From a virus, in the IMG/VR virus record IMGVR_UViG_3300047319_000426, positions 1 to 27,930 of that record: a stretch of 27,930 nt of DNA. One strand, given 5' to 3'. The translations under genes were made by a program, and so were the position numbers. Positions 6,681 to 27,114 of this stretch are shown piece after piece; positions within the stretch are counted from its first letter, which is position 1, and each line of letters begins with the position of its first letter. The notes beneath the pieces are model-generated. The model saw only the letters and a list, made by a program, of their open reading frames with translations, was not told where the DNA came from and made no database searches.

Positions 6681-6721
6681 GAAAATTGGCAGCGAACCTG
6701 CCTGAAGGGAGAAAAAAAGAA

Positions 6722-7726
6722 ATGGCTGAACTTAGCACTGCGAATCCTACATTGCTGGACATCGCCAAAGCCACCGATCCAAACGGGGGCATTGCGACCG
6801 TCGTTGAAATGCTGCACCAGAAGAACGACATTCTGGATCACGCAACATGGCTGGAAGCGAACGATGGTTCCACGCATGTAACAACTGTCCGAACCGGACT
6901 TCCTCAACCGACATGGCGCAAGCTTTACGGTGGAGTGCAGCCCACGAAATCAACCCGCGCCCAGATCAAGGATGCAACCGGAAGTCTGTGGGCGTATGCC
7001 GAAGTCGATAAGGAACTGGCGGACAAGAGCGGCAACGCTGCAGCTTTCCGTTTGTCTGAAGACTCCGCGCACATCGAAGGCATGAACCAGGAATTTGCCC
7101 AGACGCTGTTCTACGGAAACGAAGGAACGGCTCCTGCAGAATTCACCGGCCTTGCTCCTCGATTCAATTCTCTGACTGGCTCGGCCAGCGGATACAACAT
7201 CATCGACGCAGCGGGCAACGACAGTGACCTGACTTCCATGTGGCTCATTGTTTGGGGACCGCAGACTGTGTTCAACATTTATCCCAAAGGCGCTCCGGGC
7301 GGATTGGAGATGAAGGATCACGGCGAAGTGACGATCGAAGATGCAGACGGCAGCAACGGTGGACGTATGCAAGCGTACCGCACTCACTACAAGTGGAGCT
7401 GCGGCCTTGTTGTGCGCGACTGGCGCTACGTTGTCCGCATCGCAAACATCGATATCAGTGCTCTGACAAAGGATGCCGCTTCCGGCGCCGACCTGTTGGA
7501 TCTGATGTCTCAGGCTTTGGAACTTCCGCCTGATTTGTCCTCGGGCCGCGCAGCGTTCTACTGCAGCCGCACGATTCGTTCGTTCCTGCGACGTCAGGCA
7601 CGCAAGGGCATTGCCAATTCCACGCTGGCTCTTGACAACATTGGTGGAAAGAAATTCGTCACGTACGACGACGTTCCAGTCGGTCGTTGCGACGCGATTT
7701 CGCACGCGGAAGATCGCGTAGTCTAA
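6722..7726 (+). CDS. Major capsid protein, Bbp17 / GP7-type
   Basis: A 334-residue protein resembling the major capsid proteins of BPP-1-like podoviruses. Characteristic parts are the N-terminal TLLDIAKATDPNG, the segment PTWRKLYGGVQPTKST, then YAEVDKELADKSGN, a P-domain-like beta region around 200-240 (HGEVTIEDADG...MQAYRTHYKWSCGL), and the C-terminal FVTYDDVPVGRCDAI. An HK97-like fold is expected. The start at 6722 is chosen over an in-frame upstream ATG at 6686 because of the strong AAGGGAG site 10 bases before it; the extra 12 residues (MAANLPEGRKKE) would only be translated Shine-Dalgarno sequence. It is flanked by hairpins on both sides, which fits a highly expressed gene. Confidence 0.93.
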   Translation: MAELSTANPTLLDIAKATDPNGGIATVVEMLHQKNDILDHATWLEANDGSTHVTTVRTGLPQPTWRKLYGGVQPTKSTRAQIKDATGSLWAYAEVDKELADKSGNAAAFRLSEDSAHIEGMNQEFAQTLFYGNEGTAPAEFTGLAPRFNSLTGSASGYNIIDAAGNDSDLTSMWLIVWGPQTVFNIYPKGAPGGLEMKDHGEVTIEDADGSNGGRMQAYRTHYKWSCGLVVRDWRYVVRIANIDISALTKDAASGADLLDLMSQALELPPDLSSGRAAFYCSRTIRSFLRRQARKGIANSTLALDNIGGKKFVTYDDVPVGRCDAISHAEDRVV

Positions 7727-12007: not shown

Positions 12008-12161
12008 CGTCAGCTTCGACGAAACGCATTACGTTCCGTACATGGATCTGCCGCACGAGACTGACCGGCTCTGCCGCTGCCAGCCGGACATCTACATCGG
12101 CCTGACTTCGGAGAAAGTCGAGCATCGTCCGTGGTCTTCGCTTACACCGGCAGATCAATGA
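11979..12161 (+). CDS. Small hypothetical protein (60 aa)
   Basis: Not recognised. The ATG at 11979 is set by a strong GGAGGA (11965-11970, 8-base spacing), so the in-frame upstream extension to 11874 is not used. The product has a hydrophobic start (AKPIFAIIDVSF) and a mid-region with two cysteines (LCRCQPDIYIGL). Its TGA overlaps the ATG of the acetyltransferase (ATGA at 12158-12161), so the two are probably translated together. Confidence 0.7.
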   Translation: MAKPIFAIIDVSFDETHYVPYMDLPHETDRLCRCQPDIYIGLTSEKVEHRPWSSLTPADQ

Positions 12162-12610
12162 TCCGCGAGGCAACCTTCGACGACATCAGGAATCTCGTCG
12201 ATTTGGCACAGGAGCTTGTCACAGAGAGCCCCGTGTTCAACATTGAGGAATTCTGCCGACTCAAAACATTCGACTTCCTAGCTGGCCTTCTGACGTCATC
12301 TGGTGGTATCCTGTTGGTGGCTGAGAGAGATGGCACCATCGTCGGCGCGATGGCTGGAGGCGTCAGTGAGCATCCGTTCGGTTATTCGAAATTTGCATTT
12401 GATTATGGTCTGTTTGTCCGTCCTCGGCTTCGGGGCGGTATTGCCGCTGCCGCACTTGTCAGAGCGTTCGAAGCCAAGGCCGCGAGCCTGGGGGCAAAGG
12501 ATTTCAGGCCGGGAATTATGACTGCGATTCACGTGTCGCGGACGACTCGACTTTACGAACGTCTCGGTTACATGAGAACCGGGACGCAGTTGATTAAGAG
12601 GTTTTTCTAA
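12158..12610 (+). CDS. GNAT-family N-acetyltransferase
   Basis: A 150-residue GNAT fold. It starts MIREATFDDI, has a beta strand pair ILLVAERDGTIVGAMAGGV (strands 2-3), the acetyl-CoA motif A at about 86-100 (FVRPRLRGGIAAAAL), and motif B with RLYERLGYMRTGTQLIKRFF near the end. The ATG at 12158 is used because it overlaps the previous stop as ATGA; an upstream in-frame ATG at 12131 would overlap more. Acetyltransferases occur at this place, between tail tube and internal virion genes, in many T7-type phages. The substrate is unknown; host-takeover or virion-protein acetylation are possibilities only. Confidence 0.85.
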   Translation: MIREATFDDIRNLVDLAQELVTESPVFNIEEFCRLKTFDFLAGLLTSSGGILLVAERDGTIVGAMAGGVSEHPFGYSKFAFDYGLFVRPRLRGGIAAAALVRAFEAKAASLGAKDFRPGIMTAIHVSRTTRLYERLGYMRTGTQLIKRFF

Positions 12611-13146
12611 TGGGTGTAGCACAAGGCGTACAGATGGGCGGGCAGGTCGCAGGTGGCGTACTGAACTATTATGCCCAGAAGAAACAAGCTGCGGTCGATA
12701 AGAAGAACGCTTTGATCGCTGCGATGTTCGCACGCAAGGCAGCGGCTGACGCGATCTCCGTTGGCGGATCGATGGCAGCACGAGCGCTCGGCGAGGGAAG
12801 CCGCAACGTCGGAACGCAACGCGCTTCAACTGCCGGTCGTGGATTTGAAATCGGAACAGGGACCGCGAAGCAGATCACTGACGCGACGAATCTCGTCTCC
12901 TCGGTCGATGCCATGACGATCCGCATCAATGCGTCCAAGGCCGCAGAGGAAGATCTGAAGACGGCATACAGCGCAGATCAGGCGGCAGCGGCAGCGAAGC
13001 CTCCAAGCTTTTTGGGAACGCTTCTCGGCATAGCGGCGCCGGTCGCGTCAACGTGGAGCACTTACTCTTCGCAGAACAAAATTGACAACACGAACGATCA
13101 GCTTTCGACGAATGAAAAATACGCCGCTGCAGGATGGCATACATAA
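12610..13146 (+). CDS. Internal virion protein A (T7 gp14-like)
   Basis: A 178-residue Ala/Gly/Ser-rich helical protein. The segment with AARALGEGSRNVGTQRASTAGRGFEIGTGTA and then SVDAMTIRINASKAAEE is like the small core protein of the T7 ejectosome, which forms the outer-membrane channel. The hydrophobic stretch FLGTLLGIAAPVASTW near 133-150 could be the membrane-inserting part. Position, first of three internal genes with TAATG coupling on both sides (12610 and 13146), supports the call. Sequence similarity is moderate by eye. Confidence 0.8.
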   Translation: MGVAQGVQMGGQVAGGVLNYYAQKKQAAVDKKNALIAAMFARKAAADAISVGGSMAARALGEGSRNVGTQRASTAGRGFEIGTGTAKQITDATNLVSSVDAMTIRINASKAAEEDLKTAYSADQAAAAAKPPSFLGTLLGIAAPVASTWSTYSSQNKIDNTNDQLSTNEKYAAAGWHT

Positions 13147-14837
13147 TGGCAATTCAAATCCCAGGACCAACACAGCAACTCCAGACTGGCGGAAAGGGCG
13201 CACCGCAGATCTCGAATCCGGATAGCCGTAATCTTCTCGGGCTCGCGCAGGGTGCGGACGCGGTAGGGAAAGCTGCGGGCCAGATCGCGCAGAACGAGAG
13301 AGCAGTCAGCGAAGCGCAAAAAGCTGCCGACGAAAAGCTTGCCGAAGTTCAACGGAAGGCCGCAGAAGAACTGCGAATGAAAACGAACATCACGACCGCG
13401 ACTGAAGCGCAGAACCTGACGCAATCGGTCATTCGTGATTACACCGCGAAGGTGCAACAGGAACGTCGTGGGCTCGGCGCCAAGGGACTGACCGAAGACG
13501 CGACAACTTATCTCGACGACAACATCCAACAGATCGGCGATGCGATCGAAGATCCTGAAGCGCGAGCAATGTACGTGAAGGCCGCGACTCAGATGAAGAA
13601 CTCGACGCTCGATAGCATGTCATCGTTTCAGGCCGGTCAGCTCAACTCCGCGCTGTCCTCGTCATTGGAATCCAGCATCGCGAGCAACGTGGACTTTGGT
13701 GCAGCGAATACCGGCAACCCCCAGGGCATCGCCATTGCACGAGCGAATATCGTGAACGCCTCCGCGAACATGGTGAATGGCGGATTCTGGTCGCCGGAGG
13801 AAGGGAAGTATCAGGAGCAGAAAGCATTGGCGACGATGCACACGCAGATCTTCGACAACCTTGCAGCGATCGATCCTGATGCAGCGCGGAAGTACAAGGA
13901 TGACAACATCAAAGAAATGGGCGGCGATCTCAAACACTTCGCCGATGTGCTGAAGGTCAAGGACGATTTGATTCCGGCGCAGAAGCTCGCAGACAAATTG
14001 ATTCGAGAGAAGACGCCGTTCGCTGAGAAGTATCAGGCGATCCGTGACAACCTGCAAGGGCAGCAACGCGAGAACGCGATGCGAATCATGAAAGAATATG
14101 AGCAGGGATTCAACGACGAAGAGAAGGCGACGAACGCCGCAAACGTGAATCAAGCAGAACAGCTTTTCGCTGAGACGCGCAACGTCTCCGATCTGCAGAA
14201 TAAGTTCCCGGCGCTGTGGGCTTCACTCCCTGGCGACGTGCGGCTTTCGATGCAGGATCGTCAGCGAACACCGCAGGAGCAGGTCGTCGGAGACGACGTG
14301 ACCTATCTGTGGCTCAAGCAACAGGCCGGTCTGAATCCGAAGTTCATGATCGATCCGTCGTTCAATCTTGGACTGTACGCATCGAAGCTGAACATTCAGC
14401 AACTGACCGATATCAACAAGGATCTGATTGCAGTTCGTTCCGGCAAAGGATTGGGCGTTGGAACGTTGGTGCAGGATGTGAACGCTGCAGTTAAATCGCT
14501 GGAAGTTCCCGGCAGATTCTATGGTGCAACTGGTTTGACGTCCGAAGAGAAAGCGGACTTCTTCCAATCTGTCTCGCAGAAGATTGAGGAAGTCGAAAAC
14601 GAAACCCATTTACCCGTTACTTCAGAACAGCGCAAGAAGATCATTGACGACCTTACCGCTGATACCGTCTGGACGAGCGGCTGGACTTCACTCGATAAAC
14701 ACACAACACTCGGATCTGTGCTCGGTCACATTCCGACTGGAGAGAAAGCGCAAATTAAGGCAAGCTTGCAATCACAAGGTTTGCCGACGACTGACGAAGC
14801 TATTGCGAAGATGTACATCAAAGCACATCCACGCTAG
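13146..14837 (+). CDS. Internal virion protein B (T7 gp15-like)
   Basis: A 563-residue, mostly helical protein starting MAIQIPGPTQQLQ at the ATG that overlaps the preceding TAA (13146). An in-frame ATG 12 bases earlier would only add MAYI. The region at about 40-120 is a long coiled coil rich in Ala, Glu, Lys and Gln (AQNERAVSEAQKAADEKLAE). The middle has repeated helical hairpins with conserved Ala/Pro turns (IDPDAARKYKDDN), and the last 80 residues are mixed alpha/beta. Such proteins form the periplasmic tube of the ejectosome. There are no cysteines and no signal peptide. Identification rests on context and composition more than motifs. Confidence 0.8.
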   Translation: MAIQIPGPTQQLQTGGKGAPQISNPDSRNLLGLAQGADAVGKAAGQIAQNERAVSEAQKAADEKLAEVQRKAAEELRMKTNITTATEAQNLTQSVIRDYTAKVQQERRGLGAKGLTEDATTYLDDNIQQIGDAIEDPEARAMYVKAATQMKNSTLDSMSSFQAGQLNSALSSSLESSIASNVDFGAANTGNPQGIAIARANIVNASANMVNGGFWSPEEGKYQEQKALATMHTQIFDNLAAIDPDAARKYKDDNIKEMGGDLKHFADVLKVKDDLIPAQKLADKLIREKTPFAEKYQAIRDNLQGQQRENAMRIMKEYEQGFNDEEKATNAANVNQAEQLFAETRNVSDLQNKFPALWASLPGDVRLSMQDRQRTPQEQVVGDDVTYLWLKQQAGLNPKFMIDPSFNLGLYASKLNIQQLTDINKDLIAVRSGKGLGVGTLVQDVNAAVKSLEVPGRFYGATGLTSEEKADFFQSVSQKIEEVENETHLPVTSEQRKKIIDDLTADTVWTSGWTSLDKHTTLGSVLGHIPTGEKAQIKASLQSQGLPTTDEAIAKMYIKAHPR

Positions 14838-14845
14838 GAGTTGCC

Positions 14846-17800
14846 ATGCCCGAACAAAATCCGTACGATAAGATCGCAAAGGATCTGAAAGATCAAGGCG
14901 CGTTCAATACGCCTACCGCGCCCACCACAGTTCTCCCAACGTCAACCTATGACTACGCCGCACAGCGGACTCCAGACGCGCACGCACAGGCGCTGAAGGC
15001 CCAGAACGAAGTCGGCTTGCCAGTGCCGGTCGCAGAGCAGGACGCGAATCAAACGGCGTTCCAGTTGCGAATGCGCGATCTGGATAAGACGCTGAAGAAC
15101 ACCACGCCCGAAGTCCAACAGTTCATGTCTGGAGGCAAACCGCCAGATGGACCTGCGGGAAAGTTTGCGGGCATTGTGGTTCCAGGCAACATCAAGAATC
15201 TGTACGATCGTAAGATCCTGAACAATCCTGACGGCAGCTATTCGACCACGGAATCCGCGAGCTTCAACATCAACGGCAAAGAAGTGTTGCTGCCAACGGT
15301 TGTTGATGGCGTGCGGCTGACGTCGCAGAATCCTGATGGCACGACGAACTACAGCAAGGTGATGGAGCGTTGGAACAAGACAGGCGAAATGCTTGGCGTG
15401 TTCGATACGCCGGAGCACGCGGACGCGTATGCCGTCGCACTGCACAAGTCACAGGAAGATTACATCGAGGCACAGAAGACGAAGATCAATCCGGTTGACG
15501 CGCTCACGGTATCGCAAGACGATCTCGGCGTTCTCGATCAGCTCTCTCGCGGCCTTAAACAGTTCTGGCATTCGCTTCAGTTCGACGCGGCTGGCGGACA
15601 CAAGGCCGCGAACGATGCGATCATCACTCCGCAACAGCTTCGCGAGCCGGTCTATTCGTTCGCTGCAGGAACGCAGGGAATTCAGACTGGCGTGTATGGC
15701 GGAACGTCATGGACTCTCAGTTCACTGTCTCAACAGTTGAAGAAGGTGGCCGGTCCCGACAACGCTGTCAGCAAATTGCTGGATCATGGCAGCAAGATGT
15801 ACAACGATCTCGCGCAGCAATCCAATGCTGTTGCACAAACACTGTCCGGCGTTACTGGAGGCGACCGCGCCAACATGGGAACGATCGAAGCTGGCCTGAA
15901 CTCCGGCGTCGAATCGCTGCCAGGCAATCTCGCAACATTGGCCGCGACTGCAGGACTGCCTGAGAAGATGAGCGTGGACTTTGCATCATTCATCGGCGCA
16001 GCCTTTGGTGGATTCCTGTCTGCAGGACAGGAGCGCACGGATCTCATCGCGAGCGGCGTGCCAGAGGAAAGAGCCAACGCTGGAGCACTCAGTAATTTCT
16101 CGATTGAAACCGCGACCGAAATCTTGCCGATCTCTGCAGTGATGGAGAGAGCGGGCGGGAAGATTGGGTTTGTGAAAATGATCGAGAAATACGGACTGTC
16201 CGAACAGATCGGCGAGCAAGTCGCTACACTCTTCGAAGACTTCTCAAGCGAAGCCTCGAAGAATCCGGATCTCTCGCTGAAGGATTACATTGCGAATCAT
16301 GACTTCGCTGGCGCCGCAGAACAGACGTTCGTGGCGACGCTCGTATCGACCGCGCTCATCGGTGGCGGACTCGGCGCACTGAACAACGCTGCGATCGAGA
16401 AGCAGAAAGCTGAAGCCGCGAAGCGCGACGCAGATCTATTGACGAAGCTGAATGGTGTCATCGAACAGTCGAAGACTCGCACGCGTGCGCCTTCGGTCAT
16501 CAAGTCATTCGTTGAATCCCAACTGCCGGGAGCGACGATGCACATCGACGCACAGACGCTCGTGGATATTCTCGCGAAGCAAGATGTAAAGCTGAAAGAT
16601 GTCCGCGACAAGGTTCCATCGATCGATTCACAGATCGACGACGCGCTCACAATGGGCGGCGACGTCGTTGTTCCTGCATCCGAATGGGCCGCAGGAATGG
16701 CCGGAGAGAAATACAATCAGGCCGTGATTCCGCACACGCGCATCGCGTCGAAGGAATTGAGCTACGAAGACCAACAGGAGTTTGGTGAGAAGCAAGCGGT
16801 TCAGGATGCACGGAAGGCGCTCGATGAATCCACCGTGCTGCAGGACCGGCAGCAACAGATCCACACGATTCAACAGAACGTCGCGCAACAGCTCATCGTT
16901 GCGAGGCCGGACCTGTACAATCCAGAGACGGCGCTGCAGAGCGCCACGCTCGTCGGTTCGACATACGACAAGCTATCCGAAGATCTCACCCTTGGCGATG
17001 TCGTCGTTACGCCAGAGGAAGCATTCGCGAAGTATCCGTTCATAGTCCAGGCCGGAGAAGGCGGCGATTTCAATCAGGTCGCACAGGCGTCTCCGTTCGA
17101 AGTTGTGCAGAACATCGCGGGCAAGTTCATCATCGAGCCGATTGACAAAGGACCGATGACGAAGCCGAAGGGCTTGCCGAATCCATCTGCGATGGAAGTG
17201 GACAATAACGGCAGACGATTGCAGAATACTGGTGCGCCAATCGATCGGCGCCAACAGTTGCAGACGAAGCAGGTTCCGTACGCTGGCGATAAGGAACTTG
17301 GCATTCCTCCCGGCACGGCGACTGAGATCATTCCGGCTAATCCGACGAAGTTCACCGAACAGCAACTCGCTGACCGGCGCAACTACAAGCGTACAGCGAA
17401 GACGCAGAAGGAAGAATCTGGTCGCGTGTGGGCGACGAATCCCGATACGCATGCGCGTGAGCTTGTCTCACCCGAACAAGCAAAGCAGTGGGGCGAGCCC
17501 GCAGCGCAGTTGCCCGCAGAGTTTCAGAACAAGAAGACGCCCCAGGCGCCGACGCAGGAATTCAACACCAAAGAGGAAGCACAAGCCGCTATCGACAAGT
17601 TACTTGCATCTGAATTTGGGCAATCTGTGTATCACGGATCGCCGCATGAATTTGACGTTTTCAGTCTTCAGAAACTCGGCACTGGAGAAGGCAATCAGAC
17701 GTATGGATACGGTCTGTACTTCGCAAGCAACAAAGCGGTAGCAGAATACTACCGCAAAGCAATCACGGCATGGAGAAGCACAGGTGATAACGTCGGACGT

Positions 17801-20800
17801 TTATATGAAGTGGACATCCCAAGTGATGAGAATTTCATTCAGTATGAGAAAAACATCAACGACCAAAGTCCAAATGTTAGGGAAGCACTGATAGCTGCAG
17901 TGAATGAAGCTCCGGTCAACGAAGGGGCAAAGCGATTGATCCTGAACGGAACAGCTCCTGCCAGCTACGCATACAGAAAGATCGCTGATGGTTTCCAAAC
18001 CGGAGAATCTGTTCCGATCAAAAGCGGAGATCAAAAAGCTAGTGAATTACTCGCAGCGAAAGGTATCGCCGGTATCCAGTATCTCGACCAACATAGCCGC
18101 AACTCTGGCAAGGGCTCAACAAATTATGTCGTGTTCGATGACAAGCTCGCGAAGATAGTCTCTTTCAATCAGGATCTTCGTGGTGCTATTAAGTTCGATC
18201 CGTCTCAGGCAATAGTTCGTCTCACAAAAACGGCGGATATGTCCACATTTCTTCATGAATTTTCGCACATGCTTCTTCGAGTACACCAGGAGCTGGCAGG
18301 TAATCCCGAAGCGCCTTCGGTGTTCCGTGAACGGATGCAGATTATCGAAGATTGGGCCGGGGATGTTTCTGAAAGAGACATGCACGAGAAGTTCGCCACG
18401 GGATTCGAACAATATCTCTTCCAGGGCAAAGCGCCAAATGAGAGCCTTCGATCCGTGTTCCGCGCTTTCTCTTCGTGGATGAAAGCGATTTATCAAAAGA
18501 TCGCAAATCTCGGCAGCGGCTTTTCGCCGGAAGTCCGGCACGTCGTCGAGTCGATGATTGCATCAGAGAATCAGGTGGACATGAAAGAGTCGCAGCTTCG
18601 TGCGACGCCGATGTTCGAGAGCCGCGACAAGGCGAATCTGACAGCGGACGAGTGGGACGCATATCAAGCGACCGACGTAGAACGCACACAGAAGGCCGTG
18701 GAGACGATGCAGACCCGCTCCCTACGTGAGATGCGGTTCCTGCGGAAGTCGCAGTCCAAGGAGCTTTCTCGCTTACAGAAACTGGTATCGGCTCGGCGCC
18801 AAGAGGCCGAAGCTGCCGCGAGAACTGAAGTGCAGAACAGGCCGATTCGCCAGATCGAGAACTTCCTCGTGACCGGCAACGTTACGGCGGAAGACGGCAG
18901 CGTGCAGAACTTCCCGCTGCACAAGTTGAACATCAACGATCTCGAAGCGATGTACACTCCGCTCGAAGAGGACAACGCCCCCGTTCCCGACTGGCGCAAT
19001 CTGAAGTCTGCCGGGAAGAAGCTGACGAGCGAGGATGGATTGCATCCGGATATCGTCGCGCAAATAGCGGGCAGCACGTTCTCGTCCGGCGATGAACTCG
19101 TGCGGAAGCTCGCGAACCTGCAGCCGATCAACGATGAGATCCAAGCGTTAACGGATCTCACCATGCTGGAGAACTACGGCGACATCTACGACAAGGAAAC
19201 ACTCGACCGCGCAGTTGACATCGCGGTCCACAACGACGCGCTCATCAAGATGGCAGCGATCGAGCTGAAAGCTTTGGGCTCTGCGATCAGCGTGAAGACG
19301 TTGAGCAAGACCGCCAAGGCGTTCGCTGAAGAGGCGATCGGACGCAAGCAGGTTGGACGTCTGCGCGTGAAGGACTTCGAACTCGCGGAATCACGCAGCG
19401 CACGTAAGGCGCTCGCGGCTTTGGAGAAGGGCAACCTGACCGAAGCTGTGATGCACAAGAAGAATCAGATCCTCAATGGCATCGCCGCGAAGTATGCAGC
19501 ACAGGCGCTCGACGAAGTGCGCGATCAGATCCGTTACAACGCCAAGTTCCGCAAGCCAGCTCTGAAGCAACGGATTGGACGCGACACAGTGGAGCAGGTC
19601 ACAGGATTACTCGAACAGTTTGGATTCAAGGAAGCGAAGGGCACGACGCGGCCAACGCTTGCATCTTGGATCGCGGATCAGCAAGTGATCGGCTACGATC
19701 CCGGCGTTCCCGCATGGATTCAGACCGGCGAGTACAAAGCTTATTCCGCTTTGACGATGGATGAATTCCGCGAAGTGTCGGATGCGATCAAGGCCGTCGA
19801 AGAGACTGGCCGCAATCGGCAACAGGTTCTGGTGAAGGGCCAAGCTATCGAATTCGAGAAGGCCGAAGCGGAGCTTGTCGATTCGATCCACGCCAATGCG
19901 GTACGCACGCAGAAGCAAGGCGTCGAAGAGAAGAAAGGACTCGTCGAGAAATTGAAGAAGTGGAAGTCGGAGCTGACGCTGTTCGATTTCACTGCGCGAG
20001 AAATTGACGGCTGGAAAGACTTCGGCCCGATGCACAACATCCTCGTTACGATGAAGAACAAAGCTTCCGTCTATGAGGCCGAACGCCAATTGGAAGCGTA
20101 CAAACAACTCAACGAACTGCAGAAGATTCTCGGCAAGGTGAAGGATACTGCGAGCTTCATCCCTGAAATAAACATGTCGTTGACGCGCAACCAACGCATC
20201 AAGTTCGCACTCTACGCTGGCACGAAGGAAAGCTATCAGCGTCTGCAGGACGGCGGCATTTACACCGGCCCGACGAAACTCTCCGCGCAGGAGATCCGCG
20301 CTGTGCTGGATTCTCTCACGAAGGAAGAGATGAACTACGTGCAAGGCATGTGGGATTTCTTCAAACCGTTTTGGGCAGAGATCGTTGAGAAAGAGAAGCG
20401 GCTCAAAGGCTACGCGCCGAAGCCAGCCGACGTTATCTCTGTGACGACGAAGCATGGTGAATTCCCTGGAGGATACTTCCCGATCGATTACGATCGACGC
20501 GGCGAAGGTATGCACAACGATCCGGACACGGCGCAGGAAGCCTACGACAAAACTCGTATGGGCCGATACACTGGCATCGTCACAAAGAACGGCGCGTTGA
20601 ACGAGCGCGTCACAACGATCAAGGACCGGCCTCTGAACTTGGATTTGTCCACGCTGCCGAACCATGTGAACGAAATGATTCACGACTTGGCATTCCACGA
20701 GTGGGCGATTCAATCGCACAAGGTTCTCTACTCGAACAAAGTTAAGGCCGCGATGCTGGAGCACTATCCAATCTCGACGTTGGACAACCTGCGTAAAGAA

Positions 20801-21730
20801 CGGGCGAACATCATCAAGGGCAACATCGGAGCTGCGGGCGCCGGAGATCAGGTCATTCGTACTCTGCGGAAATGGTCTGCCGTTGGCGCACTCGCGTTCA
20901 ACTTCCATTCGGGAATCATGCAGCCGATCGGGATGCTGCAAGCTCTCCCGCGCATTGGTGCCACCGGCCTCGCTGTGGGCGTGATGCGTGCATTCCAGAA
21001 CACTGCACGCCTGGAGCTGCCATCGACATACGCACTGGAGCACTCAGGCTTCATGCGTTCCAACTTCAACGCTTCAACTCAGGAGCTGGCAACTTGGAAG
21101 AAGGACATGGAATCCTCGAAGGCGTGGAAGCGCAACGTCGATAAGGCAACCGGCTTCGTCGTCAGCGATCTCGGCTTCATGTGGATGCGCGGTATGAACA
21201 ACGCCACGAACAACGTCATCTGGCTCGGCGCCGAATCCAAGGCCCGCAGCAAAGGCGGACTGACTGAGGAGCAGATCATTGAGTATGCCGACGACGCTGT
21301 GCGCGATACACAAGGCAGCGGATTGAAGGTCGATCGCTCGTTGTTCGAGCAGTCGATCGGCGGCGAGATCTTGTCGATGTACTACACATTCTTCTCGCGC
21401 ACGTACAACATGAGCCGCGAGATCAAAGGCAAAACTAAAAGCGTGAAGGACGTTCCTCGCGCAGCGTACCACTATGGCATGATGATCGGCGTCGCGTCGA
21501 TCCTCGCCACGATCGCGCACGGACTGGCGTCGAAGCAACCGGACAAGGATCTGGCGCCGGACGCATTCCTGAAAGACGCCATTGCATTCCTGTTGAATCA
21601 GGTTCCTGTTGGCCGCGAGTTTGGTGGATTGATCCAGGGCTATCCGTATCGCGGACCTGCGATCAGTAGCGCGATCAAGCAACTGTACGATATGATTCCT
21701 AAAGCAGAGAAAATCGTGGAGGGACAATAA
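14846..21730 (+). CDS. Giant polyvalent ejection protein (T7 gp16 position) with ADP-ribosyltransferase and zinc metallopeptidase domains
   Basis: A 2294-residue protein in the place of the largest internal virion protein. In order: an N-terminal GNI...NPDGS.STT.S.S.NI.GKEVLLPTVV module (about 114-205) known from other phage proteins; hydrophobic helices near 380-395 and 495-512; an ADP-ribosyltransferase domain of the polyvalent-protein (ART-PolyVal) type at about 927-1105 with YHGSPHEFD (929-937), GTGEG, YGYGLYFAS (953-961) and a final NYVVFDD; a zincin-like domain with HEFSH (1137-1141) and a later E.FATGFEQYL whose Glu1181 or Glu1188 could be the third ligand; long charged helices with coiled-coil parts (1230-1900); and a C-terminal region with GALAFNFHSGIMQPIGML and a membrane-like helix near 2209-2230. 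No lytic transglycosylase motif is seen. The start follows AGGAG (14836-14840). Ejection into the host is inferred. Confidence 0.9.
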   Translation: MPEQNPYDKIAKDLKDQGAFNTPTAPTTVLPTSTYDYAAQRTPDAHAQALKAQNEVGLPVPVAEQDANQTAFQLRMRDLDKTLKNTTPEVQQFMSGGKPPDGPAGKFAGIVVPGNIKNLYDRKILNNPDGSYSTTESASFNINGKEVLLPTVVDGVRLTSQNPDGTTNYSKVMERWNKTGEMLGVFDTPEHADAYAVALHKSQEDYIEAQKTKINPVDALTVSQDDLGVLDQLSRGLKQFWHSLQFDAAGGHKAANDAIITPQQLREPVYSFAAGTQGIQTGVYGGTSWTLSSLSQQLKKVAGPDNAVSKLLDHGSKMYNDLAQQSNAVAQTLSGVTGGDRANMGTIEAGLNSGVESLPGNLATLAATAGLPEKMSVDFASFIGAAFGGFLSAGQERTDLIASGVPEERANAGALSNFSIETATEILPISAVMERAGGKIGFVKMIEKYGLSEQIGEQVATLFEDFSSEASKNPDLSLKDYIANHDFAGAAEQTFVATLVSTALIGGGLGALNNAAIEKQKAEAAKRDADLLTKLNGVIEQSKTRTRAPSVIKSFVESQLPGATMHIDAQTLVDILAKQDVKLKDVRDKVPSIDSQIDDALTMGGDVVVPASEWAAGMAGEKYNQAVIPHTRIASKELSYEDQQEFGEKQAVQDARKALDESTVLQDRQQQIHTIQQNVAQQLIVARPDLYNPETALQSATLVGSTYDKLSEDLTLGDVVVTPEEAFAKYPFIVQAGEGGDFNQVAQASPFEVVQNIAGKFIIEPIDKGPMTKPKGLPNPSAMEVDNNGRRLQNTGAPIDRRQQLQTKQVPYAGDKELGIPPGTATEIIPANPTKFTEQQLADRRNYKRTAKTQKEESGRVWATNPDTHARELVSPEQAKQWGEPAAQLPAEFQNKKTPQAPTQEFNTKEEAQAAIDKLLASEFGQSVYHGSPHEFDVFSLQKLGTGEGNQTYGYGLYFASNKAVAEYYRKAITAWRSTGDNVGRLYEVDIPSDENFIQYEKNINDQSPNVREALIAAVNEAPVNEGAKRLILNGTAPASYAYRKIADGFQTGESVPIKSGDQKASELLAAKGIAGIQYLDQHSRNSGKGSTNYVVFDDKLAKIVSFNQDLRGAIKFDPSQAIVRLTKTADMSTFLHEFSHMLLRVHQELAGNPEAPSVFRERMQIIEDWAGDVSERDMHEKFATGFEQYLFQGKAPNESLRSVFRAFSSWMKAIYQKIANLGSGFSPEVRHVVESMIASENQVDMKESQLRATPMFESRDKANLTADEWDAYQATDVERTQKAVETMQTRSLREMRFLRKSQSKELSRLQKLVSARRQEAEAAARTEVQNRPIRQIENFLVTGNVTAEDGSVQNFPLHKLNINDLEAMYTPLEEDNAPVPDWRNLKSAGKKLTSEDGLHPDIVAQIAGSTFSSGDELVRKLANLQPINDEIQALTDLTMLENYGDIYDKETLDRAVDIAVHNDALIKMAAIELKALGSAISVKTLSKTAKAFAEEAIGRKQVGRLRVKDFELAESRSARKALAALEKGNLTEAVMHKKNQILNGIAAKYAAQALDEVRDQIRYNAKFRKPALKQRIGRDTVEQVTGLLEQFGFKEAKGTTRPTLASWIADQQVIGYDPGVPAWIQTGEYKAYSALTMDEFREVSDAIKAVEETGRNRQQVLVKGQAIEFEKAEAELVDSIHANAVRTQKQGVEEKKGLVEKLKKWKSELTLFDFTAREIDGWKDFGPMHNILVTMKNKASVYEAERQLEAYKQLNELQKILGKVKDTASFIPEINMSLTRNQRIKFALYAGTKESYQRLQDGGIYTGPTKLSAQEIRAVLDSLTKEEMNYVQGMWDFFKPFWAEIVEKEKRLKGYAPKPADVISVTTKHGEFPGGYFPIDYDRRGEGMHNDPDTAQEAYDKTRMGRYTGIVTKNGALNERVTTIKDRPLNLDLSTLPNHVNEMIHDLAFHEWAIQSHKVLYSNKVKAAMLEHYPISTLDNLRKERANIIKGNIGAAGAGDQVIRTLRKWSAVGALAFNFHSGIMQPIGMLQALPRIGATGLAVGVMRAFQNTARLELPSTYALEHSGFMRSNFNASTQELATWKKDMESSKAWKRNVDKATGFVVSDLGFMWMRGMNNATNNVIWLGAESKARSKGGLTEEQIIEYADDAVRDTQGSGLKVDRSLFEQSIGGEILSMYYTFFSRTYNMSREIKGKTKSVKDVPRAAYHYGMMIGVASILATIAHGLASKQPDKDLAPDAFLKDAIAFLLNQVPVGREFGGLIQGYPYRGPAISSAIKQLYDMIPKAEKIVEGQ
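17590..18300 (+). other. AT-rich island within the giant gene, covering the ADP-ribosyltransferase region
   Basis: A hand count gives about 47% GC over 17761-18300, with a minimum of about 33% in 17821-17880, against about 59% over 19321-19560 in the same gene. The boundaries match the ART domain and its junction with the metallopeptidase. The outer limits given here are approximate. Confidence 0.6.
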
Positions 21731-21855
21731 TGGTTCAACCTGACGACAAGAAATATTGGCTGACTCCCGGCGACGAAGAAGCTGATGGCGCGAAGCTGGA
21801 CGAGGGAGTCAAGAGTCTGATAGACTATTTAGAGATCAGAGAAAACGGGAAGTGA
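21730..21855 (+). CDS. Very small hypothetical protein (41 aa)
   Basis: A 41-codon frame whose ATG overlaps the stop of the giant gene (TAATG), the junction type used throughout this gene block. The product is highly charged (DDKKYWLTPGDEEADGAKLDEG...) with a helical C-terminus. It fills an otherwise 128-base gap exactly between two genes, and the next ATG follows three bases after its TGA. It is probably real, but the function is unknown. Confidence 0.6.
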   Translation: MVQPDDKKYWLTPGDEEADGAKLDEGVKSLIDYLEIRENGK

Positions 21856-21858
21856 AAC

Positions 21859-22083
21859 ATGGATGTGTCAAAGATCATTGGTAGTATCCCGCTGGCCGCA
21901 GGAGCGGTTTACGTTACAAAGGAATTGTTCGTGAGCGCCAGAGACAAAGTGAAGAAGTGGGATAAGCACGTCGCCGATGACGAGACAACCCATGCCGTTT
22001 TCAAGACGAAGCTCGAAGCACAGGCCGAATCGTTGAAGAACATCGAAAGCAATCTCAACCGGCTTGTAGATAAACTTTTGTAG
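21859..22083 (+). CDS. Small protein with N-terminal hydrophobic helix and coiled-coil tail (74 aa)
   Basis: Residues 5-24 (KIIGSIPLAAGAVYVTKELF) form a weak membrane helix; the rest (about 28-74) is a charged helix with heptad-like Leu/Ile spacing (LEAQAESLKNIESNLNRLV). That layout is seen in some phage membrane proteins of lysis systems (i-spanin or XhlA-like), but no specific family is recognised and there are no known spanin motifs. It starts three bases after the preceding stop with GGGA upstream, and is followed by another tiny gene. It might be an accessory lysis or membrane-anchoring protein; this is a guess. Confidence 0.7.
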   Translation: MDVSKIIGSIPLAAGAVYVTKELFVSARDKVKKWDKHVADDETTHAVFKTKLEAQAESLKNIESNLNRLVDKLL

Positions 22084-22091
22084 GAGGCGCC

Positions 22092-22223
22092 ATGCCCTTC
22101 AAGAAAACCGGACCTGATTCATACACAAGTCCAAGCGGTCGAAAGTGGACCGGCAAACAGGTGAGACTTTATTACGCGACTGACGGCTTCACGAAAAAAC
22201 CGAAGCGGAAAAAGAAACGCTAG
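22092..22223 (+). CDS. Very small basic protein (43 aa)
   Basis: A 43-residue frame with the best Shine-Dalgarno of this group (AGGAGG at 22082-22087, 4-base spacing). It reads YTSPSGRKWTGKQVRLYYATDGF followed by a run of lysines and arginines (KKPKRKKKR). This SPSGRK...YYATDGF layout recurs in small uncharacterised phage proteins. The basic tail could bind nucleic acid. It is the last plus-strand gene, and its final 35 bases overlap the 3' end of the convergent minus-strand gene. Confidence 0.7.
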   Translation: MPFKKTGPDSYTSPSGRKWTGKQVRLYYATDGFTKKPKRKKKR

Positions 22224-22686
22224 AAGTTCCGTTCAGATCCTTGTACCACAATTGCTTCCGCTCTGAGAGATGAGCTTCAACCTTCCGCGCTCCTCGTCCA
22301 CCTTCATGATGCCAGCCGACCGGATGACTCATTCGGTCAAACTTCCAGCCGGAAGCTGTCAACGATAATCCCGTTTCTGTTTTCAAAATGAAAGTCTGAA
22401 TTCGATTGTAGCCCAGGGCAGCGGAGGCGCGAGCTGCAGCGGAGTAGAGAAATGAGCAGACGTTCTTCGTGCCGTCAGAGCACAGCCGCGTGACTTCAGT
22501 CCAGTCTGTTTGATGCTGTCCGCCGACCGGCCTTCCTACGATCACAACGCCGACAAGCTTGTCGTCCACTGTGGCGCCCAAGCTGAACCTGTGGCCTTGC
22601 ACTTTCTTGTGGTGTCGATGCAGACGATCGACGAATTCGTTTGCTTCTTTCAACTCGACGTGGCAGAGCTTCAGCGTTCCGCTCAT
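22189..22686 (-). CDS. XF1762-family GNAT-like protein
   Basis: A 165-residue protein of the XF1762 family of phage/prophage acetyltransferase-like proteins. Signature parts are ELKEANEFVDRLHRHHKKVQGHRFSLGA, LVGVVIVGRPVGG, EVTRLCSDGTKNVCSFLY, and LGYNRIQTFI...TGLSLTASGW. The EVTRLC/SFLY/lGY/aGW series is shared with GNAT-fold DNA-modification proteins of the Mom type, so base modification is one possible role. The ATG at 22686 is chosen over an in-frame upstream ATG (22812) because it overlaps the primase-helicase stop as ATGA. The last 15 residues (NGTSSVSFSASVFS) look non-conserved and run into the convergent overlap. Confidence 0.85.
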   Translation of the reverse strand: MSGTLKLCHVELKEANEFVDRLHRHHKKVQGHRFSLGATVDDKLVGVVIVGRPVGGQHQTDWTEVTRLCSDGTKNVCSFLYSAAARASAALGYNRIQTFILKTETGLSLTASGWKFDRMSHPVGWHHEGGRGARKVEAHLSERKQLWYKDLNGTSSVSFSASVFS

Positions 22687-24290
22687 ATCCACTCCACCAC
22701 GCACGAGTCGCCGACCGGCGCCAGTCGGAAATTGTAAGTCTTGCCGCTCTCCGCGTTCTTCATCTTGGCTACGCGCATGACGCGTTTGTCTCCCTCGTCC
22801 GCGACCTGCCATTCAACTTCGAACGCTCCGTGCAAACCGCTCCAGCCTCGGGCTCCCTTGCCTTCAGACTTTCCCTCATGGTGAATTAGCATGACGAGGG
22901 CGCCGGTCGCCTTGTTGATTTGGTCGCAGAAGTGGATAACTTGACCCATATCCTTGCCCGAATTCTCGTCCGCCCCAGGGGTTACGCGGGCGAGCGTGTC
23001 AACGAACACCATAAGGGGGCGCCCTGTGGACACAATGGCCTCCAGAAACGCTTTGGAGTGGTCCTTGTTCATGAGACTAGGGGCGGCAGGAAGGACGCGC
23101 AGGGGGGCGCCTACGGCCCCTCTTACTGCCATCCCTGCGGCAAGTCTCGCCTGTACCCCCGGATCGTCCTCTGCCGCAGTGTAGAGGACCGGCCCCTGCT
23201 TGGCAGGGATGCCACGGAACGGCTGGCCCAACGCCACATCCAACGCCACATCGACGGCGAGGAATGTCTTAGCCGCTCCCGGCTGGCCGTAAATCGCCCC
23301 GACGCTCGCGTGAGGCAGTATACCAGGAATAATCCAATCAGGCGCCGGTCGTGAAAACAACTCGCCCAATTCGAGAAACTCAAATTTAATCCCGCTCGGT
23401 AACTTCTCATCTGCACCTGCCGTGAAATCGTCTGATTGTTCCTGTACGGTAACATCCTTGAACTCGGTCACTGATGCGATGTCTGTCTTCCGCAAGCTGT
23501 CCGCTGTGACCGGCGTCACCGACTGGCCGAAAGAATTCCAGTGAATGCGTCGCTCCTCGATAGGCCGCGCAGTCTTGTCAGGATTATTCCAGCGAGGAGC
23601 GCTCCACATTTCCCAGATCGCGAATCCCTCTTCAGATCCATTCGTCTCGTGGTGGATCGCCATCCCGACTTTGATCCATTCGTGATAGCTGCAGTTCGGA
23701 TCTTTGCGTGAGAGCAAAGATGTCAGCGCGGATAGCTCCGTGGTCTGCTCCGTCGCGCCAGTTCTTTCAGGCAATCTAATCTCGGTCTGCCACAGATCGA
23801 GCAGTTCTTTCGGCATTGTGGGCAGAGAACGCCAGTTGCCTTTCCATGCGTAGGTTGATCCAGAAGGGTGCCGTGATGGGGGCAGTACGTCTTGGGCGGT
23901 CTTACCCGCCGTGGTCCCACAGCGTAATTCAAAAGCGCCGTCAGCGAATGATTTAGAAGCGAGCGGAGTTTCGAGAGCATAAAGAAGTTTCCCCCTGTTG
24001 GAGCGACCGCTGAGAATCTGAACGGCATCCGGCGCCGCCATCAGCTTGTCGAGATCGATGCCGCGTTCTTTCAACCAAACAAGCGAATCATCAAACCGAT
24101 CAATATCCAAAGCGGCAGTTCCAGAATAGGCATGACATAAGCCAGCCGATTCAAGGTGAGTCGCAATGTCAGGATCTGTGATCGCCTTCTCGCGTTCGTT
24201 CCAACCGTTGTAGCGCGGGCCTTTCTGCCCGCGCCTGATGTTGCAAATTTTCCATCCATGTTCAACATAGTCCTTGAATGTTACTTCCAA
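22683..24290 (-). CDS. Bifunctional primase-polymerase / RepA-like helicase
   Basis: About 535 residues from a likely TTG start at 24290. An N-terminal Prim-Pol (AEP) domain has ALDIDRFDD with the catalytic Asp62-x-Asp64, ILSGRSNRG, and PPSRHPSGSTYAW with His141. A PriCT-like helical linker is at about 181-256 (LSRKDPNCSYHEWIKVGMAI). A RecA-like RepA/AAA_25 ATPase follows, with Walker A GQPGAAKT (335-342), VLYTAAEDD, Walker B MVFVDTLARV and IHHEGKSEGKGARG. It should prime and unwind DNA during replication. The TTG is preceded by GGAGG (24301-24297 on this strand) at 6-base spacing and overlaps the previous stop by 10 bases; the first in-frame ATG (24362) would overlap by 82. All catalytic residues are present. 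Confidence 0.93.
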   Translation of the reverse strand: MEVTFKDYVEHGWKICNIRRGQKGPRYNGWNEREKAITDPDIATHLESAGLCHAYSGTAALDIDRFDDSLVWLKERGIDLDKLMAAPDAVQILSGRSNRGKLLYALETPLASKSFADGAFELRCGTTAGKTAQDVLPPSRHPSGSTYAWKGNWRSLPTMPKELLDLWQTEIRLPERTGATEQTTELSALTSLLSRKDPNCSYHEWIKVGMAIHHETNGSEEGFAIWEMWSAPRWNNPDKTARPIEERRIHWNSFGQSVTPVTADSLRKTDIASVTEFKDVTVQEQSDDFTAGADEKLPSGIKFEFLELGELFSRPAPDWIIPGILPHASVGAIYGQPGAAKTFLAVDVALDVALGQPFRGIPAKQGPVLYTAAEDDPGVQARLAAGMAVRGAVGAPLRVLPAAPSLMNKDHSKAFLEAIVSTGRPLMVFVDTLARVTPGADENSGKDMGQVIHFCDQINKATGALVMLIHHEGKSEGKGARGWSGLHGAFEVEWQVADEGDKRVMRVAKMKNAESGKTYNFRLAPVGDSCVVEWI

Positions 24291-25852
24291 AACTTGCCTC
24301 CGATACAGATGTGTATGTGGCGTTTGTTTAGTGGATCGATCGAGACGTGCGCGTTGAGCCACGATCCGATCGGGCCTGTGTACTCCAGCGAGAGAGGCGT
24401 CATCGTGCCTGTCCGGTAATGTCCGGCTTCAATCCCTGGCGTGTGGCTGTGACCTGAAACAACTTTGACTCCAAGCTTCGAGAGATTCTTCATCGTGCCA
24501 CGGGCGCCGTTCGGTCCCTCGTGCCCATGTAGACTACACTCGATGCCGCCGATTGTAAAGCTCTTGTTCTCCGGCAGACACTTCACGCCTTTCAGCTTTG
24601 CGCGTTTGAGCCAGTAGTGAAACGGATCGGGCGTGTGCGTTCCGCTCGGCGTCATCTTCGTACCGCGCCGCATGAACAGCGCCGTCTCCAGATAGAAGTC
24701 ACCATTGACCGGCTCCTCTTTCCAGTTGCCGGTCTTGATCCAGCGGGCCAGCATGTTGTCGTGGTTCGAGGGAACGACCACAGCTTTGCGCCCGCCGACT
24801 TTCTCTTTGAGCCAGTTGATTGTGTACCGGACTTCGGCAGCAATGTCGTCAAGGCCCGATGCTCGCTTCGCTGCCGCGATGAACGGATTCCCTACATGAT
24901 GTGGGTTGACGGCATAGCAGTCAAGAAGGTCGTGGAACACGAGAGTATCCGGGTTAAGTCGCTCGACAAGCCCACCTTTATCGAACGTGGCTCTGACGAC
25001 TTCGGTATTCGCAAATTGAGCGTGTGCGTCTCCAAAGATGAGTCCCTTATATGGACCCGAATCATGGACAGTTCCGTCTGAGGAATATCTCCGATCAAGG
25101 TCACAGAAAGATCCATCACTGGACGCGTTGATGTGTCTAAGATGAAAGACACCCTCTGTATCCAGCTCGACAACAACAGCTCCAATAACATGATGAAATT
25201 CTCCCTTCTTCCCGGCGCCGGAGTCGGTGTAGTTCTCGATCGTACACGCGCCGGTCGTCGTCATTATCTTCGGTAAACGTTTGTGCGGTGTCGGCACGAC
25301 TACCATCTGCAGCTTCGGATGTGCGATGATGCCGCTCTCTCCATGTGTGATCGATTCGAATCCACCAACGGGATTGCCGCTCGTCGGCTGAACGTTGATG
25401 TCTCCAAGCAACACCAGATTTTTGTTGAGCTGTGTCCGCTGATTGTGGAGGAACGCTTCTAACTCCGGCGCCCACCACATTTCGCTTTCCTGTTTGTCGG
25501 TCCACTGACTCGTGGCGTTTCGATAGTGACCGGCGACGACGACCAGGCTGGCATCTCGATCACGGAGAAACGCAGGGACAGATCCAAGCACGAAGCCCTT
25601 GTGGATTGGAGTGGCATTCTGCGCCCACGTAATGAGGATTGTTTTCTTGATATGCTTCTGTCTGTACTCACGTTTCTTCTCCAGTTCGATCGGCTTCATG
25701 TCGCGCCCGCGATAGGCCGCATCAGGGTTCGTTGTTCGATAGCACTTCGGCACGGAGTTGCAGCACCAACGGAACAGGCCAGAGATCGCCCGCTCTTTGG
25801 TCAGGTACAGAGTCATCTTTCCACACTTCGGACACAGCTTCTTTTCTTTCAT
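24281..25852 (-). CDS. Metallophosphoesterase, phage T5 A1-like, with N-terminal zinc ribbon
   Basis: A 523-residue protein from the ATG at 25852 (AGGAG just upstream; a longer in-frame form to 26032 has no support). Residues 7-37 make a zinc ribbon (CPKC...CC.....C). A middle part (ITWAQNATPIHKGF, NKNLVLLGDINVQPT, ESITHGESGIIAHPKLQ, KKGEFHHVIGA) resembles the A1-type DNA-transfer proteins of T5 and relatives. The C-terminal half has calcineurin-like metal motifs: GDAH (274-277), FHDLLD (306-311), SNHDN (362-366), HGHEG (442-446) and GHSHTPG (467-473). It is likely a metal-dependent nuclease or phosphatase. In T5, A1 is needed for host DNA breakdown and second-step DNA transfer; whether that holds here is an inference. 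Confidence 0.85.
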   Translation of the reverse strand: MKEKKLCPKCGKMTLYLTKERAISGLFRWCCNSVPKCYRTTNPDAAYRGRDMKPIELEKKREYRQKHIKKTILITWAQNATPIHKGFVLGSVPAFLRDRDASLVVVAGHYRNATSQWTDKQESEMWWAPELEAFLHNQRTQLNKNLVLLGDINVQPTSGNPVGGFESITHGESGIIAHPKLQMVVVPTPHKRLPKIMTTTGACTIENYTDSGAGKKGEFHHVIGAVVVELDTEGVFHLRHINASSDGSFCDLDRRYSSDGTVHDSGPYKGLIFGDAHAQFANTEVVRATFDKGGLVERLNPDTLVFHDLLDCYAVNPHHVGNPFIAAAKRASGLDDIAAEVRYTINWLKEKVGGRKAVVVPSNHDNMLARWIKTGNWKEEPVNGDFYLETALFMRRGTKMTPSGTHTPDPFHYWLKRAKLKGVKCLPENKSFTIGGIECSLHGHEGPNGARGTMKNLSKLGVKVVSGHSHTPGIEAGHYRTGTMTPLSLEYTGPIGSWLNAHVSIDPLNKRHIHICIGGKFWK

Positions 25853-25859
25853 GGTTCTC

Positions 25860-26462
25860 CTAGATGCAATCGCAAAGCATACGGTCGTCGTTGCAATGCG
25901 GACAGTTGGCAACAATCGGTTCTTCCTCCAGAACGATCTCGTGATCCGGCACCGGCTTGCACTGGCATCCGTTTGTGGAGTTGATGTCCCACGTATTGCC
26001 ACAGCCATTGCATTGAACCAGACAGGGCGCATGGCCGATCTTTTGGCCGATCTCTGTGAACGCTTCCTTCGAGTCCGGATACTTTGCGATCACAGCTTTG
26101 CACGCCTTCTCCAGTTCCGTGAAGAATCCCGCTGGCGCCTTCGGTGGCCGATCATCGTTGCACTGTCCAAGGATCATCGCGTCGCGCAAAACGAAAAGCG
26201 TTGCGATCGCTTTGGTGACATGCGACAGGCCGGAGTCCGGATCGACATCTTCGCCTTCCCAACACTTCACCATGTGGCGGAAGCACGCGTCATAGTACGT
26301 GCTGAAGCGCACGCCGGAGACGCGGTAGTTGTGGCGCCCATACTTGCGCGAGCCTTCCATCATGGCGACGCCAAGCTCGGCGAGAACTGGACCTGATACT
26401 GTGGACAGCGGTGGCTTCGCGGTCCCGACTGCTTCCTTTGGGTTTGTTGCTTTCACGCTCAT
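25860..26462 (-). CDS. dATP/dGTP diphosphohydrolase-type protein (MazZ-related) with two zinc ribbons
   Basis: A 200-residue protein. Residues 1-110 match the dATP/dGTP diphosphohydrolase N-terminal domain: [53 protein letters not shown] and [13 protein letters not shown]. Members are MazG-like nucleotide pyrophosphohydrolases; MazZ of modified-base phages cuts dGTP (and dATP) to the monophosphate. The C-terminal part (about 147-200) is unusual: CNGCG...CQC and CPHC...CDC form two putative zinc ribbons. The ATG at 26462 overlaps the preceding stop as ATGA; a longer form to 26546 is not supported. It could also simply balance dNTP pools. Confidence 0.85.
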
Positions 26463-26872
26463 GCGAATCCCTCCTCGAACATTGTGATGGCGATCGAGTC
26501 TGCGTCGATCGGCTTGATGAAGCCGTCCTCGTACAGCCAGAACCAAACGCCTTTTTGAATACCAACGAAGGCTTCCAGTTTAGCACCTTTCGACTTCGAC
26601 CATCCAGGGAGAAGCACGATCCCCTGAATGCCGCCGTCTGCAATCATCTTCACATCGCGGGCCAGCATTTCGCCCCACGTGTGATTCAGCTTCGTGTTGT
26701 CGCCATCCTTCGACGCAAACACGAGGCGCATATCGAGGCCGCTGTCTTCGTCCAGCTCGACCGGCGAGACGACTTCCATCTTGAGCCCGCGCAGAACTCC
26801 TGCAGCTTTGATGAACAACGGAACGTTGAACTGTTCGTATCCAGACATAGGTCCGGCGAGATAAATTTTCAT
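26459..26872 (-). CDS. DUF4406 / nucleoside 2-deoxyribosyltransferase-like protein
   Basis: A 137-residue protein with the DUF4406 pattern: [20 protein letters not shown] (AGPMSG at 6-11), [33 protein letters not shown] (PGW at 89-91, Glu100) and a hydrophobic end. The family is related to nucleoside 2-deoxyribosyltransferases, which swap or remove bases on deoxynucleosides or deoxynucleotides. Gly90-Trp91 and Glu100 line up with the usual nucleophile region. The ATG at 26872 overlaps the upstream stop (ATGA), and the TGA overlaps the next ATG, so it is translated with the diphosphohydrolase-type gene. The catalytic activity of DUF4406 members is not well established. Confidence 0.85.
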
Positions 26873-27114
26873 TTGTACACGTCTCCATTCTCTTCGATCT
26901 TGATGTTCTCGTACGGCGCCGCGATGCGCCGGTACAGTTCCAGCTTCGCGCATTCGAGTACGCCGACGAGTCCGTTGATTGTGGCGTAGCTCATGCCGAA
27001 GTTGTCGATGTGCTGTTGCAGCAACGTCGTGATCTTGTAATTCAGTTCTCCAACAGAGGCCGGATCTGCTTCACGATCGATTGCGTTCCGTCGCTCCTGT
27101 GTGATGTAAGGCAT
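26869..27114 (-). CDS. Small phage protein, DUF6899-like (81 aa)
   Basis: An 81-residue protein starting [13 protein letters not shown], with [45 protein letters not shown] and the ending KIEENGDVY. This layout is a very widespread but uncharacterised small phage family. The C-terminal Y..RI..PYE.IKI.ENGDVY part is the best conserved segment. The ATG overlaps the helicase stop (TAATG) and the stop overlaps the next ATG. No catalytic residues are evident; it is probably a folded helical adaptor. Confidence 0.82.

Follow-up and report, generated by a model that had tools for sequence, protein, structure and literature searches.

Polyvalent proteins were described by Iyer et al. (2017; PMC5512222) as large multidomain phage proteins in which ADP-ribosyltransferases (ARTs) of the H-Y-D (Tox-ART-HYD2-like) type occur together with zincin-like metallopeptidases (MPTases); injection of such proteins and their processing by the MPTase were predicted, and autoprocessing was proposed. 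The main text of that paper mentions no cleavage or linker motif, no cargo slot, and not phage BPP-1. A second point of comparison is Bbp10 of Bordetella phage BPP-1, a member of PHROG_9880, and the published analysis of BPP-1 was limited to two major bands (PMC3863775). Here, we examine a relative of Bbp10, P0001 (2294 amino acids), that is encoded by an open reading frame without internal stops at positions 14846..21730 of the window, by which is meant the whole stretch of DNA analyzed. The window is an entire IMG/VR virus record (27,930 bases), probably a fragment, and all features given below as window positions in brackets lie on the plus strand unless stated otherwise. PHROG_9880, a family without assigned function, spans the whole protein (residues 36-2261, E=1e-245), indicating that P0001 is a real conserved phage protein. 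With an ART, a zincin motif, an LPD22-like region (residues 35-95, [14948..15130]; Pfam PF18834, E=7e-5, slightly under the cut-off), and the constant modules described below, it combines two or more dissimilar domains in a single long chain and belongs to an established class, the polyvalent proteins with an ART plus a metallopeptidase. The first-pass annotation of this DNA had placed ART motifs and a HEFSH motif in this reading frame, and all were found where it had put them; it had also noted that polyvalent proteins with such effectors are known in phages, and the combination of ART and metallopeptidase is indeed already published (Iyer et al., 2017; PMC5512222). Relative to that work, what is measured here is a slot in the protein, the exchange of its contents, and short tags that accompany them.

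The gene order of the window is that of head and tail genes followed by an internal virion protein (phrog_418; [12610..13146]), a structural-lysozyme-like gene (phrog_10475/1044; [13134..14837]), and the P0001 gene, which therefore lies inside an internal virion cassette. A GNAT acetyltransferase gene [12131..12610] is also found within the cassette; GNATs occur as cargo, too, in relatives of P0001. The enzymatic part of T7 gp16 is a transglycosylase, and no sequence relation between gp16 and P0001 was detected. In gene position they are alike, since gp16 and other podophage ejection proteins are likewise encoded by the last and largest gene of the internal virion cassette (reviewed in PMC8954989). 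The cassette had been called T7-type at first pass, and this holds for its layout but not for the phage as a whole: the major capsid protein [6686..7726] matches NCBIfam MCP_gp7_epsi_15 (E=2e-103) and is of the epsilon15 gp7 type, and P0001 itself has its closest named relatives in BPP-1-type phages. The gene order and the relatives both fit the suggested role as an ejection protein, and it is highly likely that P0001 serves a BPP-1/epsilon15-like podophage as its large ejection-type protein. Its presence in virions, its entry into the cell, and its action before phage gene expression are suggested by synteny and precedent. Downstream of the gene (21731-27930), primase/helicase-type genes are encoded on the minus strand, and the tail-spike or fiber gene that follows the ejection gene in relatives is absent.

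Relatives of P0001 were identified by tblastn in the Caulobacter phages Jess A, RapA, SR18, and BL94, in BPP-1, and in phages of Pseudomonas, Xanthomonas, Vibrio, Cobetia, Limnohabitans, and cyanobacteria. A search of viral contigs with P0001 alone returned no confirmed relative. A first set comprised 15 named-phage relatives and 80 IMG/VR loci out of at least 570 confirmed, and a second set comprised 80 prophage loci in bacterial genomes, of which 74 were analyzable. Two profiles, with 555 positions for the N module and 1239 for the zincin plus C module, delimit the corresponding parts in nearly all relatives, the second profile matching every one. In P0001, these parts are a constant N module (residues 37-736, [14954..17053]), a variable cargo slot (residues 737-1115, [17054..18190]), and a constant zincin plus C module (residues 1116-2288, [18191..21709]). 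The zincin-C part varies little in length (mean 1303, sd 91 amino acids), whereas the part that precedes it varies widely (mean 1223, sd 459). The slot itself measures between 21 and 1788 residues in viral relatives and can be as short as 15 in the prophage set, where it is shorter than 70 residues in 7 of 58 relatives. We consider this three-part architecture close to certain. Within the N module, a small mobile domain (residues 105-232, [15158..15541]) is common to DNA-transfer or structural proteins of other podophages, with 37-43% identity to parts of such proteins in Aeromonas phage 4_4512, SPN1S, Klyazma, and the Rhizobium TM phages; judging from these matches, it apparently moves among the ejection proteins of otherwise unrelated podophages.

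The contents of the slot are diverse and exchangeable. Searched with Pfam, 74 slots included 12 with ART-PolyVal (a clear match in Jess A, E=3.6e-22) and 10 with PBECR nucleases, along with others that hold DUF7178, LPD3, GGDEF, GNAT, or DUF3293 domains. Overall, the PBECR domains seen as cargo are of types PBECR1, PBECR3, and PBECR5, and MuF_C and ASCH domains also occur. Bbp10 shares with P0001 the N module, the zincin, the C module, and the gene position, but its slot holds a PBECR1 RNase-type domain instead of an ART. Among 228 pairs of relatives at least 55% identical in the C module, 146 have slots without detectable similarity. The clearest case is that of two Achromobacter prophages, from A. 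anxifer (L282) and A. pestifer (L283), which share 92.4% identity in the N module and 94.5% in the C module but whose unrelated slots encode PBECR3 plus an ART in the former and a GNAT in the latter; the difference is a cassette exchange.

The cargo in P0001 is an ART-PolyVal domain (residues 927-1106, [17624..18163]) with candidate catalytic residues His930, Tyr958, and Asp1081 or Asp1098. Its motifs are YHGSPHEFD (929-937), YGYGLYFAS (953-961), and NYVVFDD (1093-1099). Profile search and structure prediction, the checks that had been suggested for this domain, gave a match to Pfam PF18760 over residues 928-1099 (E=1.7e-5) at 26 bits, just under the curated cut-off of 31.2, as is also true of close stand-alone ART relatives, and an AlphaFold2 model with an ART fold (pLDDT 89.8, pTM 0.86). 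His930 on strand 1 and Tyr958 on strand 2 are invariant in 54 of 54 aligned ART sequences; for the strand-5 aspartate, Asp1098 sits in the VFDD strand, but the near-invariant residue is Asp1081. Foldseek returned as the best PDB match of the model a chain of the cyanophage A4 pre-ejectosome (9k3a_B, E=5e-5); tankyrase-2, diphtheria toxin, and a RES toxin ranked next, mostly with weak E-values. The A4 chain comes from a solved head-internal ejectosome, although the alignment is partial (TM 0.45 by query length) and no sequence match to it was found at the thresholds used. The region thus very probably has a genuine ART fold, as first proposed, and would be expected to act as an NAD+-dependent transferase. 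T4 Alt has an R-S-E active site and belongs to another ART clade than the window ART. As an ART that is packaged in the head and injected, it is nevertheless a functional precedent (PMC5512222). Across the family, an ART is present in 34 of 96 relatives, in every one upstream of the zincin. ARTs of the window type also occur as stand-alone proteins of about 320 amino acids (L101-L176, L015), many of them with a hydrophobic C-terminal tail resembling KKYGIAGLMAGG, and in phiGT1 such a gene lies between the portal and scaffold genes.

Adjoining the ART is a zincin-type domain (residues 1112-1200, [18179..18445]) with the HExxH motif HEFSH (residues 1137-1141, [18254..18268]). HExxH was found in 96 of 96 relatives, which had been retrieved by other peptide patterns, including Bbp10 and several relatives almost without cargo. 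His1137, Glu1138, His1141, Glu1181, and Glu1188 are invariant in 59 of 59 aligned zincin sequences; the loss of His930 or Glu1138 among homologs, either of which would have counted against the domain assignments, was therefore not seen. The two later glutamates [18386..18409], the second of which ends the FATGFE motif, are candidates for the third zinc ligand, and in the model (pLDDT 85.7) they lie on a separate, later helix than HExxH, consistent with a zincin-like MPTase, in which HExxH is followed by a glutamate in the next helix. Foldseek of the zincin model against the PDB matched no zincin, sequence profiles of the zincin, the ART, and the C module found no significant relative in the PDB, and hhalign of the zincin against MPTase-PolyVal gave a weak match (28% probability) that covers HExxH and the strands preceding it. 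The assignment as a protease, which we regard as likely, consequently draws mainly on invariance and motif.

The boundaries of the cargo are marked by a short tag, here called PhixQ ([LFYIMV]xQ). In P0001 it occurs as FNQ at the end of the N module (residues 742-744, [17069..17077]), as FGQ directly before the ART (924-926, [17615..17623]), and as FNQ between the ART and the zincin (1107-1109, [18164..18172]), such that the ART is bracketed exactly by the latter two. The PBECR1 domain of Bbp10 is likewise bracketed, by FDQ (606-608) and FYQ (766-768). Whatever the cargo, the zincin junction is laid out as a PhixQ tag, a short variable stretch, and usually RG. Upstream of HExxH, the tag was present in 70 of 72 non-redundant viral relatives as compared with a mean of 31 and a maximum of 41 in 500 shuffles of that stretch, and with 28-49% in control windows; it should be noted that all tag counts given here include sequences related by descent rather than independent events, such that p-values overstate independence. 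The independent prophage set gave the tag at 63 of 66 zincin junctions (mean 28 and maximum 40 in 2000 shuffles). A second peak lies right after the N module, with 43 of 58 in the prophage set against a shuffled mean of 22. A subset of the prophage relatives (L281, L295, L298, and L317) have a slot that starts differently, with an LDRLR-type sequence or similar, and no tag at the end of the N module. The tag is loosely defined and turns up in other parts of the protein as well, at about 14-22 per 1000 amino acids, and a profile of the N-junction tag recognizes the zincin junction weakly (AUC 0.62), indicating that the tag is little more than Phi-x-Q. Its conservation is at the protein level, since the underlying DNA varies, with 48 different 9-mers among 57. 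In the zincin model, it falls in a lower-confidence stretch just before the first strand.

ARTs in long slots, 500-1500 amino acids from the zincin, also end with a tag (NILNQ, DILRQ, LFEQ), and in the A. anxifer prophage protein, which has two cargo domains, each of the three boundaries carries LNQ. One member without cargo (L280) has no tag, which counts against the cutting model set out below. After the ART, the tag was found for 60 of 69 ARTs of the ejection-protein family versus 12 of 57 ARTs of the same families in other phage proteins, where many end in RYS, RFS, TKS, or FMP; directly before YHGSP-type ARTs, it was found in 20 of 24 family copies versus 5 of 75 others. Of the four family copies without it, three (L108, L115, and L141) are without the zincin, share the distal C module only, and carry FS[IL] where the family has PhixQ. 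Stand-alone ARTs mostly lack the tag. Two further explanations of the tag were considered and rejected: a DNA recombination site, as its DNA varies, and a part of the ART fold, as stand-alone ARTs do without it. When each long protein was searched de novo for over-represented 3-mers, the result was mostly noise, with the exception of FMP in a few cases and of repeated words at ART starts. Other polyvalent proteins (L249, L235, L209, L216, L017, and L115) have repeated post-ART tags of their own (RRS, TKS, TFSV, FMP, FQR, and FS[IL]), which suggests other tag/protease pairs; that the tags of a single non-family protein agree with each other is suggestive, on few pairs.

These observations may be joined in the following model. 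The constant N and zincin plus C modules would form the virion part of the protein, and effector domains, here an ART, would be swapped into the slot between them. The constant zincin would be a built-in processing protease that cuts the chain at the PhixQ tags flanking the cargo units, in P0001 at FNQ 742-744, FGQ 924-926, and FNQ 1107-1109. Cutting would free the ART (roughly residues 927-1109, about 20 kDa), which would then modify a host target at the start of infection; the whole of P0001 would be expected to give pieces of about 80, 40 (or 20), and 133 kDa. Whether the resident zincin cuts at the tags is, on the sequence patterns described, an even call, and that step sets our view of the model as a whole, in which an ejection protein combines a cargo slot with a constant protease that cuts at the tags and for which the case stands about equally for and against. 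Additionally, since relatives almost without cargo keep HExxH, the zincin needs a role besides cargo release, perhaps the separation of the N from the C module.

A possible, though unlikely, alternative is that the tags merely belong to linkers at domain boundaries, retained for folding or docking, and that the cargo is delivered within the whole chain, with the zincin being structural or acting on other virion proteins in head maturation. The lack of a PDB zincin match to the model and the retention of a zincin-like domain in cargo-less members are in keeping with this, as is the finding that the N4 virion RNA polymerase (vRNAP) has an MPTase yet is packaged uncut (cited in PMC5512222), which counts against the cutting model. 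However, linkers need not have Phi and Q at nearly every boundary between unrelated folds, nor differ by host protein as the tags do, and the putative catalytic and ligand residues of the zincin are all invariant. The first-pass annotation had read the ART and the zincin as two weapons against host proteins at the start of infection, which we consider improbable. Effectors normally diversify, whereas the zincin is constant, is co-conserved with the structural C module, and is present in all 96 relatives, near-cargo-less ones included, while the ART is exchangeable. The two domains do adjoin and metallopeptidases are effectors in other conflict systems (PMC5512222), but a constant processing domain beside a variable cargo is the more economical account. 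Cutting of the tags by another phage or host protease, with a separate role for the zincin, has a parallel in P1 DarA, which is processed by a separate head protease (PMC12810830), but is very improbable given that the type of tag depends on whether the chain itself contains the zincin module.

That polyvalent proteins are cut by their own metallopeptidase is an idea of 2017, which the tag coordinates of the cutting model render testable, and BPP-1 is a cultivated phage in which it can be tested. In the literature searched, coverage of which is incomplete, no description of a cleavage site in polyvalent proteins was found. To our knowledge, three things are new: that proteins of the BPP-1 family have a slot, that its contents are exchanged between near-identical prophages, and that PhixQ tags track the zincin protease. 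The tags provide a sequence rule for locating where undescribed injected effectors begin and end, applicable to hundreds of phages and prophages. More tentatively, and on balance doubtfully, injected phage polyproteins may use private cleavage codes, in which the embedded protease of each lineage recognizes its own short tag and effectors with matching tags are drop-in cartridges that are released in the infected cell. If so, the code would be PhixQ in the BPP-1-type family and RYS/RFS, FMP, or FS[IL] elsewhere.
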